Positions 54,334 to 62,760 of a stretch of 64,000 nt of DNA are shown piece by piece. The stretch is from Paenibacillus sp. 19GGS1-52 (lineage in GTDB: Bacteria > Bacillota > Bacilli > Paenibacillales > Paenibacillaceae): positions 310,001-374,000 of the forward strand of contig NZ_CP059724.1 in the NCBI RefSeq assembly GCF_022369515.1, in the 5' to 3' direction. Below the pieces are notes generated by a model. It had not been told where the DNA came from and did no database searches. It worked only from the letters and a program-made list of their open reading frames with translations. The position numbers were made by a program, and so were the translations under genes. Numbering within the stretch: position 1 is the stretch's first letter; the number at the start of each line of letters is the position of its first letter.

Positions 54334-54813
54334 ATGTTTATTCAAATTATTGGCGTAGGCAAATTGAAAGAGAAGTATTTGGTGGACGGCATCGCGGAGT
54401 ATGCCAAACGGCTAACGCCCTACCTCAAGTTCCAGATCATTGAGGTGGCGGATGAAAAAGCACCGGACTCGATGAGCGAAGCCGAGGTCGCTATTGTGAA
54501 GGCGCGCGAGGGCGAACGCATCCTCGCGCATATCAAGAGCGAGGCGCATGTCATTGCGCTCGCGATCGACGGCAAGCTCTGGAGCTCGGAAGAGCTTGCC
54601 GCAGAAATTGACCGGCTCGGCACCTACGGGACGAGCCATGTCGTCTTCATCATCGGAGGGAGCCACGGGCTCTCCGACGACGTCATGCGCCGTGCGCAGC
54701 AGCGCATGAGCTTCGGGCGCATGACGCTGCCCCACCAGCTCATGCGCCTGGTCCTCACCGAGCAGATTTATCGCGCGGTGAAGATCAATCGGGGTGAACC
54801 GTATCACAAGTAG
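54334..54813 (+). CDS. rlmH: RlmH, 23S rRNA pseudouridine-1915 N3-methyltransferase
   Basis: The 159-residue SPOUT methyltransferase equals the B. subtilis length. It begins MFIQIIGVGKLKEKYL and has the knot-forming HVVFIIGGSHGLSDDV and LPHQLMRLVLTEQIYRA, ending RGEPYHK. It uses S-adenosylmethionine to methylate pseudouridine in helix 69 of 23S rRNA. ATG 54334 follows GGAGG. Its last codons are the site where SCC elements insert in staphylococci, and copies of this end recur downstream. Confidence 0.98.
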   Translation: MFIQIIGVGKLKEKYLVDGIAEYAKRLTPYLKFQIIEVADEKAPDSMSEAEVAIVKAREGERILAHIKSEAHVIALAIDGKLWSSEELAAEIDRLGTYGTSHVVFIIGGSHGLSDDVMRRAQQRMSFGRMTLPHQLMRLVLTEQIYRAVKINRGEPYHK

Positions 54814-54823
54814 GGCGAAATGG
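54790..54823 (+). other. rlmH-end attachment-like site 1
   Basis: The core GAACCGTATCACAAGTAG (54796-54813) is the last six codons of rlmH including stop. It is followed by GGGCGAAAT, which pairs as an inverted repeat with ATTTCGCC just before site 2. The staphylococcal SCC target is the equivalent end of rlmH (orfX). Confidence 0.75.
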
Positions 54824-54978
54824 TTGACTAGCGAGTTGGAAGGTATTCCAAATTGTGCAAGTGGTTGTAATGTCAAACATCGTTCACTGCGGTTTTTTGT
54901 AATACTGCGCTTATCATTTTTTTGTATATTAAGTAGGGAGAAGGATAATAAAGGAAATATTAAAGGAATGATTGTCAG

Positions 54979-55402
54979 GTGGAAACATCCGATCCAGTAA
55001 GATACATTGATTTTACAGACCCTGCGGACTGGGAATCGTGGCTCGCCAATCATTACGATCGGCAAGAAGAGGCTTGGCTTAGAATCGCCAAAAAGGATTC
55101 GGGCATCAAGTTGATCACCATTCCAGAAGCGCTTGATGTTGCTCTCTGTTATGGTTGGATCGATAGTCACCGTAAAGGCGAATGGAAGATGGGACGCAGC
55201 CTATGAATCACAGAAGAGCGCAACGATTCCGCCTGATCTCGCAGCAGCGCTTGAACAGCATGAACAGGCCAAACAAGCTTTCAGCCAGCTCGACAAGACC
55301 GCTCAATACGCAGTCTTCCTGCCGCTTCTGAAGGCAACAACGGCGAAGAGTCGGACTACTCAACTGCAAAAGGCGATAGCTAAACTAGAAGCCGTTCGAT
55401 AA
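54979..55402 (+). pseudogene. YdeI/OmpD-associated family protein, internally deleted
   Basis: The first frame (54979-55170) encodes the family N-terminus (WLRIAKKDSGIK, PEALDVALCYGWIDS). The text then jumps and shifts frame to the C-terminal part from about 55178 (ANGRWDAAYESQKSATIPPD and AVFLPLLKATTAKSRTTQL). About 50-60 residues of the middle, normally with the FTPRR segment, are missing. The gene is therefore a remnant. GTG at 54979 lacks a strong ribosome site. It lies inside cassette 1. Confidence 0.8.
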
Positions 55403-55434
55403 CTTTGTTTTGCCAATAGGTGGGATATGTTGTT

Positions 55435-56271
55435 TTATTCCGATGCTTGGAAGCTTAGTTCTTTCTTATATTGCAACGGTGTTTTGCCAAGCACACGATT
55501 AAAGTCCGTAATGAAATGTTGTTGACTGCTGTAACCAAGATCATAGGCCATATCCGCCCAATCGGGGTTGTCATATTCACGAATGAATCTCGCTGCCTCC
55601 AACAGTTTATTCCTCTGGAGCTGCCACTTAATCCCGATTCCGATATAATCATGGAAAAGCTGTTGGAGCCATCGCTCGCTTTTGCCAATCCTTTGAGAAA
55701 CATCCCCGACAGTCTGCAAGCGATCAGTTTCAATCGCAGTAATGATTCGGTTAATAATTTCGATGTTAGGGTCATATTGCGGGTCTTGTGCTTGTAGGAG
55801 TTCAGCAAGGGCGCCGACGGCAGCTTCGTCATGTAATGACAGCGTATTTTCAATAAAAGTCTGACCCGCCTCGGCAAACACTTGCTGTAATGCAATCGTC
55901 TCGTTGTGTAAGCCTGCCAGCGATCTGCGCCAAAAAGCGTGGAACGCGCCTGGTTTGAATCGAGCGCCGATGATTCTTCCATTATCCGCCGCCTCGTAAT
56001 CCCGTTTATCCCGGAATGAGCACTGGATACCTGATTCATTCTCAGACAAATATACATCGACATAGGGTCGGTGCATGACTTGCTCCGAAATGTAGGGCTG
56101 CCCCGTCGTGTTATTCCAATGTATGGTCCAAAAGTGGTTAACGAATGGCGTTAAACTGACCGGAGGCACATAGGTTTGAAAGATGATATGCCGCTCGAAA
56201 CCGACAGGATCAAGTTTCCCGCCCGTTTGATAAATATCAACGGATTTCTGTAATACAGTTATGATCATCAT
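55435..56271 (-). CDS. AraC family transcriptional regulator (DUF6597-like N-terminus)
   Basis: The 278-residue regulator has an N-terminal sensing domain (QTYVPPVSLTPFVNHFWTIH, IIGARFKPGAFHAFW) and a C-terminal AraC DNA-binding domain (about 180-275, VGDVSQRIGKSERWLQQLF and MAYDLGYSSQQHFITDFNR). The ATG pair at 56271/56268 is preceded by GATAGGGG, close to the start. It is divergent from the VOC gene, which is a likely target. Confidence 0.92.
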   Translation of the reverse strand: MMIITVLQKSVDIYQTGGKLDPVGFERHIIFQTYVPPVSLTPFVNHFWTIHWNNTTGQPYISEQVMHRPYVDVYLSENESGIQCSFRDKRDYEAADNGRIIGARFKPGAFHAFWRRSLAGLHNETIALQQVFAEAGQTFIENTLSLHDEAAVGALAELLQAQDPQYDPNIEIINRIITAIETDRLQTVGDVSQRIGKSERWLQQLFHDYIGIGIKWQLQRNKLLEAARFIREYDNPDWADMAYDLGYSSQQHFITDFNRVLGKTPLQYKKELSFQASE

Positions 56272-61004: not shown

Positions 61005-61217
61005 ATGGTGGCGGGACTTTACTTGGAAGTGAAGCCAAACGAGAAGGTCATGTTCACCTGGGGCTGGACCGGATCGGACTCGTTTCCGCAAGGCTCCAGC
61101 ACCGTTGAGATTCAATTACGAGAGCAGAGCAACGGAACTCAACTGATCTTAACGCACGACGGTTTACCGGTTTCGCGCAGACGTACGCATCGGGCCGGAT
61201 GGAATTACTAGCTAGGT
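61005..61217 (+). pseudogene. SRPBCC (AHSA1-type) protein remnant
   Basis: The frame GLYLEVKPNEKVMFTWGWTG and STVEIQLREQSNGTQLILTH is the central part of an AHSA1/CalC-like SRPBCC domain. After GLPV it drifts out of frame (RAGWNY then stop, where family members read GWNYYLxRL), and the N-terminal half is missing upstream. It is a fragment. Confidence 0.75.
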
Positions 61218-61809
61218 CGATTAGAGCTAGTCCTGCTCGGGTTGGAGCCCGGCCCTGATACGTTCGCCATATCAACCACCCCTTTCTTAATGATAAAGAG
61301 GATATTCGCTCATCGTACTTCCTTGAAGATGTTGCAACTGAGTTTGATGTCCAGGGTTAGAATTAGATTGGACATGCTTTGCATGGGATGCTGATCTAAG
61401 ATTAACTGAGTTTATAGGCTTCGAGGAAATTTAAATTTAGCCGTTATAGTGTGTAAGGTGAACCGTACCCTAAATAAGGGCAAGTTTTTTTGCGGAGTTC
61501 CTTGCGGGGCATAGATTTGTATATATGTGTGTAGGTTTCAGGGCTATGGTTACGCTGAAAAGGTGCATAGGACTATCGTATTTTGAGTGAAACATCCTCG
61601 TCACATCCCACGGAGGGAAGAGGACTATGTACTTAAAACTTCTTGAATCAGTTTTAAGTTTAACGGAGAGAGTTGCACATCTTTATAACGATTGTTCAGC
61701 ATCATGATGTTACCATATGGTTGGTAATCAATTATAAGTGTTTTTACATATTTTTTACCTATAGATGCTGTTAAACTGTATGTATATTTGTACTAAAGGT
61801 GGGGGCATT
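61218..61809. other. Intergenic region around site 4
   Basis: About 590 bases. It holds attachment-like site 4, a hairpin (CTTAAAAC with GTTTTAAG, 61637-61663 region) and an AT-rich leader before the acetyltransferase gene. No gene was recognised. Confidence 0.5.
61433..61490 (+). other. rlmH-end attachment-like site 4
   Basis: The core GAACCGTACCCTAAATAA (61460-61477), preceded by GGT as in rlmH, has decayed more than sites 2 and 3. Left flank AAATTTAGCCGTTATAG resembles the left flank of site 2; right flank is GGGCAAGTTTTTTT. Confidence 0.65.
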
Positions 61810-62649
61810 ATGGGGAATATCATGGAAAGTAAAGTATGCCAATTAATTTCTTTAATATCTACGGGTGCGAGGAATTATGTACATGATGCATTTATCAATC
61901 AAACGATAACTCTTGTTCACTATGAAGAATCACATGATAATCATGGTGTTTTTTGTGTGGTTGAGAATGTAGATTGTATTATCGCGTATGCAGCCTTTTC
62001 TCGATATAGTCATGATGAAACCTTGATAAATCTTATGGCGAAAAGCCTACAAAGACATTTAGACCCCAATGAAACAAGGGAAGTTTGTTTTAACATATAC
62101 GGGTGTAATGAAGAAATAGTTGTGCTTGCAAAAAAACTTGGTTTTGCGACCGATATGGAAGGCTTTCAGCTACAATACGATTTTAGTAAGGAAAATAAGA
62201 CGCTAGAGATGGCTCCACTTGTTGAAAAGGGATTTTCCTCAGCTATGCTTGATGATTTCATTCAACTGTTCGACAAAGCCTATTATAATTTGAAAGTTGA
62301 AAATGGTTGGAACACAGAAACACCATCAAAAGATGCTTTCTTACAATCCATGCTAAGTTACGAATCAGAAGATCGGGTAAGATCTTTTTGGATTGAGGAT
62401 ACTTTAATTGGGGCCTATATTATAGCAGGTGAGTTCATTCGAGATTTTGTTATACTCCCTGAATATCAGAATCGTGGGTATGGAAGTCTGATGTTGAAAA
62501 ATTGTATTCATCGAATGGCGAATATAATGGGTATGAAAAAGATTTTTTTGCGTGTGGCAAAAACAAATAGCGGGGCCAAAAGATTTTACGAAAGAAATGA
62601 TTTTATAGAGCAGTCTAATTTCGCTGAGCATACATTTGTTTCAAGATGA
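61810..62649 (+). CDS. GNAT family N-acetyltransferase
   Basis: The 279-residue protein has a C-terminal GNAT domain (about 150-279) with the acetyl-CoA motif FVILPEYQNRGYGSLMLKN and NSGAKRFYERNDF. The N-terminal part (about 1-140) looks like a second, degenerate GNAT-like module. Substrate unknown. ATG 61810 follows AAAGGTGGGGG. It is the only gene of cassette 4. Confidence 0.88.
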   Translation: MGNIMESKVCQLISLISTGARNYVHDAFINQTITLVHYEESHDNHGVFCVVENVDCIIAYAAFSRYSHDETLINLMAKSLQRHLDPNETREVCFNIYGCNEEIVVLAKKLGFATDMEGFQLQYDFSKENKTLEMAPLVEKGFSSAMLDDFIQLFDKAYYNLKVENGWNTETPSKDAFLQSMLSYESEDRVRSFWIEDTLIGAYIIAGEFIRDFVILPEYQNRGYGSLMLKNCIHRMANIMGMKKIFLRVAKTNSGAKRFYERNDFIEQSNFAEHTFVSR

Positions 62650-62686
62650 CACCTTTCAATCTGTCGAACAAATCGATATCAAAGAA

Positions 62687-62712
62687 AGGGCCATTCCGCA
62701 AAGGATGGCCCT
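62687..62712 (+). terminator. Terminator between acetyltransferase and SDR genes (both directions)
   Basis: AGGGCCATTCC pairs with GGATGGCCCT; T run on the minus strand. Confidence 0.8.
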
Positions 62713-62760
62713 AAAAAACTTGCCGTTACAGACTGCGCGGGCTAACTTATCTTATTTTAA
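62713..62760 (+). other. Degenerate rlmH-end attachment-like site 5
   Basis: Aligned without gaps to site 3, the left flank AAAACTTGCCGTTACAG is nearly identical and the core CTAACTTATCTTATTTTA keeps the TTATC block. About 30 of 45 positions match. It overlaps the last codons of the SDR gene. Confidence 0.5.

Follow-up and report, generated by a model that had tools for sequence, protein, structure and literature searches.

We analysed a 64,000-nucleotide stretch of DNA from Paenibacillus sp. 19GGS1-52 (the window; genome 310001-374000 of a 6.83-Mb genome in one contig, window position being genome position minus 310000), in which rlmH is followed by a row of small gene cassettes bounded by copies of its own 3' end. 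The RlmH encoded there is 99% identical to that of Paenibacillus monticola. The rlmH 3' end, GAACCGTATCACAAGTAG, lies at 54796-54813, and copies were found at 56906 (2 mismatches), 57935 (3 mismatches) and 61460 (more mismatches than the other two), exactly where an earlier note on this DNA had placed them. At up to 3 mismatches the window held 3 matches to GAACCGTATCACAAGTAG, versus 0.01 expected from shuffles. The pattern common to the copies, called attachment (att) sites below, is GG-N-GA-ACC and then a right arm coding for the final RlmH codons; the copies at 56906 and 57935 do read EPYHK-stop, in line with the statement of the earlier note that GEPYHK-stop is kept in the first two. Searching the whole genome with an extended pattern at up to 3 mismatches returned 9 forward matches, 1 reverse match (genome 5718322-5718348) and none for the pattern read backwards. 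A chance origin of the repeats was ruled out by the shuffles and the reversed-motif controls.

Beyond the window, forward copies lie at genome 374625, 377155, 377447, 380851 and 416850, and weaker ones at 389077, 390769 and 416436. The end at 62760 that the earlier note gave for its four cassettes was thus misplaced, as the array continues to genome 416850. Cassette 4 is less sharply delimited on its outer side, where the degenerate site 5 has GGGCTAAC instead of GGTGAACC. Homology to P. monticola starts in the left arm of this site, just ahead of the core, and the block past the site is 95.7% identical in that species; the homology start supports, without proof, a putative cassette boundary at this point.

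Every cassette carries paired terminal inverted repeats, a feature absent from the earlier note's account: GGCGAAAT / ATTTCGCC in cassette 1, GGCAAGTT / AACTTGCC in cassette 2, GGCGAAATTT / AAATTTAGCC in cassette 3 and GGCAAGTTTTTT / AAAAAACTTGCC in cassette 4. We sorted such ends into classes, labelled A-G in this analysis, of which class A (CGAAAT) and class B (GCAAGT) are central here. The coordinates of all features are collected in Table 1.

Table 1 Sites, cassettes and cargo genes at the rlmH locus, in window coordinates.
Feature	Position	Strand	Basis
rlmH; 3' end is the attachment site	54334..54813	+	RlmH match at genome 364334-364810
att site 1 (rlmH copy), GGT-GA-ACC core and right arm; central GA 54796-54797	54793..54812	+	
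att site 2	56903..56922	+	
att site 3	57932..57951	+	
att site 4, reads EPYPK-stop	61457..61476	+	
att site 5, degenerate, GGGCTAAC core	62739..62758	+	
Cassette 1; length 2110 bp; both ends class A; cargo: YdeI/OmdA-like gene (split over two frames), regulator of AraC type, glyoxalase-fold gene	54798..56907	+	
Cassette 1 rlmH-proximal terminal repeat ACCGTATCACAAGTAGGGCGAAAT	54798..54821	+	
Cassette 1 distal terminal repeat, ACCGTATCGTTCTAACGGCGAAAT read on minus strand	56882..56905	-	
Open reading frame (ORF) upstream of OmdA ORF, other frame, no Pfam match	54979-55206		
OmdA domain ORF (PF13376)	55133..55402	+	Pfam
AraC-type regulator (PF20240, PF12833)	55435..56271	-	Pfam
Glyoxalase-fold protein (PF00903)	56320..56763	+	Pfam
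Cassette 2; length 1029 bp; both ends class B; cargo: a single gene; terminal repeats at 56908-56931 and 57911-57934	56908..57936	+	
Protein encoded by cassette 2 (318 aa), without Pfam match	56952..57908	+	
Cassette 3; length 3525 bp; ends of class A (right, 57937-57960) and class D (left, 61436-61459)	57937..61461	+	
NAD-dependent epimerase-like protein (cassette 3)	58779..59615	+	Pfam
DUF2306 membrane protein (cassette 3)	60111..60764	+	Pfam
Cassette 4, class B ends; both match the element of P. chibensis (G011) with a single large serine recombinase (LSR)	61462..62743	+	
GNAT acetyltransferase PF00583 (cassette 4)	61765..62649	+	Pfam
Cassette 5 start, closed by the genome 374625 site outside the window	62747..64000	.	
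Short-chain dehydrogenase (cassette 5)	62747-63592	-	Pfam
TetR regulator (cassette 5)	from 63705		Pfam

The YdeI/OmdA-like gene of cassette 1 is spread over two frames (window 54979-55402), and cassette 3 also encodes a DUF3291-like protein whose Pfam score is just below the cut-off. Phage defence was considered as a role of the cargo and dropped, since none of 8 window proteins had a PADLOC match. Eight further sites of varying quality, at genome 374625-416850 (L015-L017), accompany cargo that includes an MmyB-like regulator, a zinc dehydrogenase and a U32 peptidase. The U32 peptidase region (genome 377859-380123) recurs in 22 other arrays at 88-97% identity and at very different distances from rlmH; it could be a native neighbour or an old cassette. 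The reverse match noted above is a lone minus-strand att copy at genome 5718348 (L018); its right end belongs to class B, as in cassette 4, and its left end is class C-like. Provided that the contig is circular, this copy lies 1.5 Mb away from rlmH.

Distribution of the sites among relatives

Relatives were sampled with one genome per species. RlmH was present in all 100 genus genomes, and all of them matched the att pattern at up to 1 mismatch (rlmH copy counted), with up to 18 matches per genome; the backward control gave 3 matches in total. Around 80 named loci, 87 sites lay downstream of rlmH (746,891 bases) versus 1 upstream (811,578 bases), while the opposite strand had 2 sites and the reversed motif 5. 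In 54 genomes, including that of 19GGS1-52, up to 40 kb downstream of rlmH was examined, and these arrays contained 229 forward sites (53 of which are the rlmH copy) versus 10 reverse and 14 backward. The 54 extracted arrays and 72 of the 80 named loci, 8 duplicates having been dropped, make up the 126 arrays analysed below, that of 19GGS1-52 included. Their intervals are mostly free of LSRs, many per genome, with a median length of 3.3 kb.

Although internal sites do not terminate rlmH itself, their right arms retain the coding sequence of the rlmH end. Among 173 exact internal sites collected with the wobble positions left free, synonymous letters occupied the wobble position of Glu in 171, Tyr in 169, His in 171 and Lys in 169, and the Pro wobble took all four letters; the wobble-free motif gave 2 sites on the other strand. 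An artefact of the degenerate motif was considered as the source of this constraint and rejected, as the constraint held in the retest with free wobble positions. The simplest account of this wobble-limited variation would be that the right arms have themselves served as the rlmH end. A base preference of the recombinase could contribute to the wobble pattern.

Secondary arrays lie away from rlmH in, for example, G007, G016, G017, G018 and G019. That of G007 opens with 26 codons from the rlmH 3' end (residues 134-159 at 96%), and others have weak rlmH matches at their start. Single class B cassettes are located elsewhere in two genomes (L358, G057:C1:3307950-3311450; L361, G047:C6:350900-353500). 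These two sit behind rlmH-arm-like sequence (AAGATCAA.CG). Insertion thus seems to follow sequence, with rlmH as the main target. The scattering of repeats away from rlmH, which the earlier note had named as evidence against itself, therefore occurs in part, as secondary arrays and single cassettes in some genomes, some of them adjoining rlmH-like sequence. The secondary arrays noted far from rlmH are L258-L265 and L268. Partial extra rlmH copies share contigs with the full gene at G074:C20:880-1322 and G023:C25:112283-112629, and the array of G086 contains one cassette of about 1 kb twice, at 7556-8572 and 14994-15990 after the rlmH start.

Cassette ends and large serine recombinases

The two ends of an interval were more alike than expected. 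In 177 intervals, paired ends agreed at 4.36 of 8 positions versus 3.74 +- 0.11 with shuffled partners, and the largest value in 1000 partner shuffles was 4.16, so that none reached the observed one. The A/B classification, from which 92 of the 177 intervals were excluded for at least one unclassed end, yielded 29 AA, 38 BB, 10 AB and 8 BA intervals (Fisher p 2e-7). Clustering of the ends in the 126 arrays (257 left and 383 right ends) revealed additional classes, and with class E included the ends were of the same class in 95 of 147 intervals. Class E ends are common (49 left, 54 right) and read GTGACGGCGAAAA / AGCTTAACGGG.

Few of these intervals encode a recombinase. With LSR-like ORFs counted from 200 aa upwards, 12 of the 257 bounded intervals contained an LSR ORF and 245 contained none; such ORFs occurred in 20 of the 126 arrays, and in 83 of the 95 arrays that have internal sites the stretch examined was free of them. 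LSR-free intervals with matched ends were small (46 BB, median 2.2 kb; 32 AA, median 3.6 kb), and LSR-bearing ones were larger (4 AA, median 22.7 kb; 2 BB, 7.3 and 27.7 kb). A PF07508 match was absent from 18 of the 100 genus genomes, some of which carry 9-11 att matches (G027, G049, G057, G071). For all nine LSRs of relatives that were compared with NCBIfam, the best model was a Ccr; their scores of 233-437 bits to CcrB lie below the cut-off of 900, and none reached the NCBI Ccr cut-offs.

We then compared ends with LSR families that were defined by sequence identity, independently of the ends: family 1 comprises LSR pairs whose first LSR is at least 69% identical to that of G073, and family 2 comprises single LSRs at least 58% identical to the G067 LSR. 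After removal of duplicates (L115=G011, L093=G001, L089=G065, L102=G050, L126=G012, L135=G045, G289=L144, G215=L136), class A right ends (GGCGAAAT) were found in 12 of the 12 family 1 elements in which a right end was read (G073, G087, G011b, G178, G162, G305, L144, G239, G212, G069, G054a and L143), the second LSR of G054a and the first of L143 being in two pieces. Family 2 elements had class B ends (GGCAAGTT) in 7 of the 7 cases in which a right end was read (G067, G001, G065, G050, which is broken, G011a, G169 and G228). Were the labels free, the calculated probability of this split would be 1 in 50,388, a figure to be read alongside the shared ancestry of the elements. In a tree of 33 LSRs, built before further family members were found, the class B enzymes formed one clade and the class A partners two.

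Other cases were incomplete or few. In G009 (family 1) only a class A left end was seen; family 1 ends were not found in the extracted stretch of G153 or in the 1.5-kb flanks in G174, and the family 1 pieces in G025 and G222 stand outside the end count. For the second family 2 copy in G067, the 1.5-kb flanks contained no site. Sites were not found in the extracted stretches of G153, G234, G215 and G349, nor on the right side of G009. The remaining pairings rest on few cases and were set aside: class C with 3 singles (G012, G054b, G178b), D with 2 near-identical pairs (G017, G058), F with 3 pairs (G045, G318, G333) and a piece in L105, and G with 3 singles represented by left ends only (G126, G242, G261), the site preceding that of G126 having a class B right end. 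Also set aside were L136 (CGCAAATT), L132 (B-like end), and G140 and G192 (other ends). In L314, L315 and L316 (G126, G261 and G242), the TGGTAAAGC left ends adjoin a plus-strand single LSR at the distal end, an arrangement from which most other classes differ. Class C LSR genes run antisense across the att site in G012 (L257:422-2056), where the gene reaches into the rlmH 3' end, and in G054 (oriented array 38634-39971); a similar overlap with the att site has been reported for dsiB (PMC3146451).

The window cassettes carry both class A and class B ends and no LSR. The earlier note had reported an array without a recombinase, and indeed no LSR was found in it, tblastn giving only weak matches; the best of these (E 3.6e-4, 62 residues, array position 48198-48383) was considered as a recombinase remnant and not accepted. 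The genome-wide search that the note had recommended returned nothing of the array type at the thresholds used: no class A LSR at E <= 1e-60 (present in 49 of 295 family genomes) and no class B LSR at E <= 1e-150 (present in 7 of 295). The genome does encode four LSRs, 22-37% identical to array LSRs by blastp. They were not chosen as the mover, as they fall outside the array LSRs on long branches without strong support; their activity on the array is possible.

The ends of the window cassettes are shared with LSR-bearing elements of relatives. G011, which corresponds to P. chibensis NBRC 15958 (L115), has a class B element with a single LSR. Cassette 4 matches this element over its first 167 bp at 88% and its last 72 bp at 78%, and between these ends no match was obtained at E <= 1e-3, the cargo being unrelated. 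Both ends of cassette 4 are thus common to a recombinase-bearing element, and conserved ends with exchanged cargo are, as judged from the sequence, the anatomy of non-autonomous derivatives. Parts of cassette 4 were matched in 76 of the 100 genus genomes, its own included, mostly the two ends among the matches listed. With the att copies included, cassette 2 has 38 bp and 53 bp in common with the same G011 element, and cassette 1 has 26 bp and 29-46 bp in common with four class A elements.

Exchange between relatives and its probable explanation

Relatives differ in which cassettes they carry and in what order. Among 1,603 alignments of at least 300 bp between the 126 arrays, 57 were in opposite orientation. 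Most alignment ends do not lie at sites; 156 of 3,453 fell within 50 bp of one, versus 35 +- 9 in a shifted-site control whose largest value in 500 runs was 69. Three alignments begin and finish at sites in both arrays. In 15 cases from 14 array pairs, blocks that adjoin at a site in one array enclose at least one whole interval in the other. For example, G057 and G078, whose rlmH genes are 98.3% identical, share a 2,961-bp cassette at 98.3% that is first in G057 and third in G078, and a 304-bp cassette of G057 is missing from G078. At least 4,440 bp at 99.98%, counted from the site to the end of the extracted stretch rather than over a whole cassette, is in first place in G093 and in second place in P. 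jilunlii, with rlmH 89.3% identical. About 1.2 kb is shared at 95-97% between G071 or G028 and Paenibacillus sp. JJ-223, where rlmH identity is about 70%. A 16-kb two-LSR element of G087 is missing at its site in P. phytohabitans (flank 94.5%, rlmH 91.7%). In the four cleanest junctions (G093/L091, L094/G087, G057/G078 and G078/G057) identity begins at GAACC; at the L113/L117 junction the arms differ and a start at GA was not seen. For staphylococcal CcrAB the central GA dinucleotide has been reported to be essential (PMC10581047). The earlier note had stated that its reading would fall if relatives carried the same intervals in the same order with no empty sites; instead, order and content differ, with presence and absence at the repeats.

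The window cassettes themselves have partial counterparts. The cassette 2 protein occurs in 81 of 295 family genomes, its own included (E <= 1e-20; query one codon longer upstream), and in G086 its gene is 88% identical over 972 bp with one internal stop, and only one of its two ends adjoins a site-like sequence. G059 and P. amylolyticus Heshi-A3 share pieces of the main block of cassette 3 (58668-60777) at 94-96% identity, their rlmH genes being 88% and 80% identical, respectively, to that of 19GGS1-52, and the block edges there have no site. Because its ends are of two classes (A and D), cassette 3 is possibly two fused cassettes; no hidden site was seen within it on inspection by eye at the P. 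amylolyticus homology edge. The cassette 4 gene has 76-78% matches in G017 and G071, and cassette 1 has partial or end matches only, in 19 of the 100 genus genomes besides its own.

We consider it likely that the locus is a recombinase-free cassette array resembling staphylococcal cassette chromosome (SCC) elements, inserted successively at the rlmH end by Ccr-type LSRs that larger elements with matching ends supplied in trans. A class-matched LSR would recognise the cassette ends and release the cassette as a circle, whose insertion point would be the central GA, either in rlmH or in a further att copy. With every insertion the final codons of rlmH would come from the right arm of the incoming cassette, which would account for the EPYHK-stop preserved in internal copies. 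Loss of the element that had brought the recombinase would then remove the enzyme, and the cargo would stay. As for the mobilisation in trans proposed in the earlier note, the ends shared with LSR-bearing elements support it indirectly, and the movement itself we infer.

The same cassettes could be fossils, that is, former complete SCC-like elements that lost their recombinase in place and became immobile, with species differences produced by deletion. The missing array-type LSR of the genome at the thresholds used, the degenerate sites (62739, genome 389077 and 416436), the faint LSR-like match at array 48198-48383 and the broken LSR genes of other arrays (e.g. G050, G054 and L143) would fit such decay. 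It is nevertheless unlikely, as it leaves unexplained the near-identical block in different places in G093 and P. jilunlii, the 1.2-kb stretches at 95-97% between species whose rlmH is only about 70% identical, the 304-bp cassette in only one of two close species, and conserved ends that enclose unrelated cargo. Homologous recombination through DNA uptake and RecA between shared flanks would also place very similar blocks at the same locus in different species, and the terminal regions of up to about 165 bp common to cassettes would offer it flanks. The excess of breakpoints at sites (156 versus 35), the start of identity at GA in the cleanest junctions and the single cassettes at other loci behind a merely short rlmH-like arm speak for a site-specific process, and we find this alternative very unlikely. 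To the idea that the repeats were spread by an unrelated transposon or are a transcription signal between ordinary accessory genes we give practically no credence: a terminator-type hairpin does lie at about 62686-62712, directly before the left repeat of cassette 4, and the end region recurs widely, but matched inverted ends, end classes, the LSR association, precise presence or absence and the site breakpoints all disfavour it.

Several points weigh against trans-mobilised cassettes as we describe them. Ends differ in class in 52 of the 147 intervals of the A/B/E table, and cassette 3 is likewise mixed (A with D); an overlooked site, a fusion or a nested insertion could each produce a mixed interval. 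No recombinase for class E was found among the LSR-bearing elements examined. Kinship within the LSR families means that the 12 and 7 elements are not independent, and among the 49 LSR genomes of the family 1 search an end was read in 25, none was present in the stretch in 3 or within 1.5 kb in 7, and the remaining 14 were unread. Site 5 is degenerate, whole matches to cassette 1 were absent among the 100 genus genomes, and sites and cassettes occur also away from rlmH. Sampling one genome per species makes the comparisons ones between species, not strains; 12 of the 15 presence/absence cases use rlmH as the left anchor, which is fixed by construction, and 4 depend on a single 1.9-kb interval of L117. 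Excision, circles and transfer were not observed, the evidence being the comparison of empty with filled sites. Taken together, the array is widespread and mobile on an evolutionary scale, and works like SCC without the defining genes of SCC.

A broader picture, on which our judgement is evenly balanced, is that Paenibacillus and its family would maintain an open-ended store of adaptive cassettes behind rlmH. The ends would be address labels, and every class would be recognised by its own Ccr-type recombinase (an LSR pair in the case of GGCGAAAT, one enzyme acting singly in that of GGCAAGTT, others for further classes); visiting elements would reshuffle cassettes of their own class only, and one rlmH site would collect all of them, an integron-like capture by serine recombinases.

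Comparison with known systems

SCC carries methicillin resistance in staphylococci, and to our knowledge it is not settled how SCC-type elements without ccr move. In the arrays, a naturally occurring system, cassettes without an LSR predominate (245 of 257 intervals). Their end classes predict which recombinase should move which cassette, and trans-mobilisation and recombinase specificity are therefore directly testable with short att sites. The arrays also suggest a means by which a large bacterial family exchanges genes and which has been little described, an exact match to a slightly wider motif being found in 156 of 197 family genomes, rlmH copy counted.

SCC elements insert at the rlmH 3' end with direct repeats, terminal inverted repeats and a central GA, and form chains, some members of which have no known ccr (PMC8407400, PMC10581047, PMC6222049). 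The array studied here likewise lies at the rlmH 3' end between direct repeats with TATCATAA and has inverted repeats at both cassette ends, those of cassette 3 differing in class, and a crossover at the central GA can be read from sequence in four junction pairs of relatives. It differs in carrying no ccrA/ccrB or ccrC: the window array has no LSR, and at the thresholds used no array-type LSR was detected in the genome. The Paenibacillus arrays further differ from SCC in their hosts, in consisting mostly of small LSR-free intervals, many per genome, in having several end classes that follow the LSR family, and in LSRs that, for the nine from relatives that were compared, score below the NCBI Ccr cut-offs.

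Tandem rlmH islands with two LSRs were mentioned for P. pinistramenti in 2023, in a primase-gene context (PMC10061031), and agree with our arrays in locus, genus and LSR pair; L136 is that very record (NZ_VAWG01000004). The earlier note's impression that nothing of the kind had been described in Paenibacillus is therefore too broad. It stands for LSR-free cassette arrays and end classes, of which no description was found in the literature searched (most subscription papers lie outside its coverage); LSR-free arrays, end classes and cassette exchange are not covered in the available text of PMC10061031. The ssrA islands of Dehalococcoides are also tandem, with repeats of a gene 3' end and a Ccr-like LSR whose gene overlaps the att site, and integrase-less islands were proposed to move with their neighbours (PMC3146451); their target is ssrA, and end classes tied to LSR type are not covered in the part of that source available. 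The Enterococcus cassette chromosome shares with the arrays a Ccr-type LSR pair, SCC-like insertion and the TATCATAA motif. It differs in being defined by ccrAB carriage and in having fewer than 5 att hits per genome, with extra attR sites in 16 of 32 elements, as reported in PMC6222049.

Tandem rlmH islands in one Paenibacillus were thus already known; it is new that LSR-free cassettes dominate and that end class is linked to LSR family. Integrons, too, line up small cargo cassettes that carry no recombinase themselves, and the integron comparison drawn in the earlier note is apt as to form. It does not extend further, as integrons use a tyrosine integrase and attC hairpins, whereas a Ccr-type serine recombinase acting on paired ends is proposed here.

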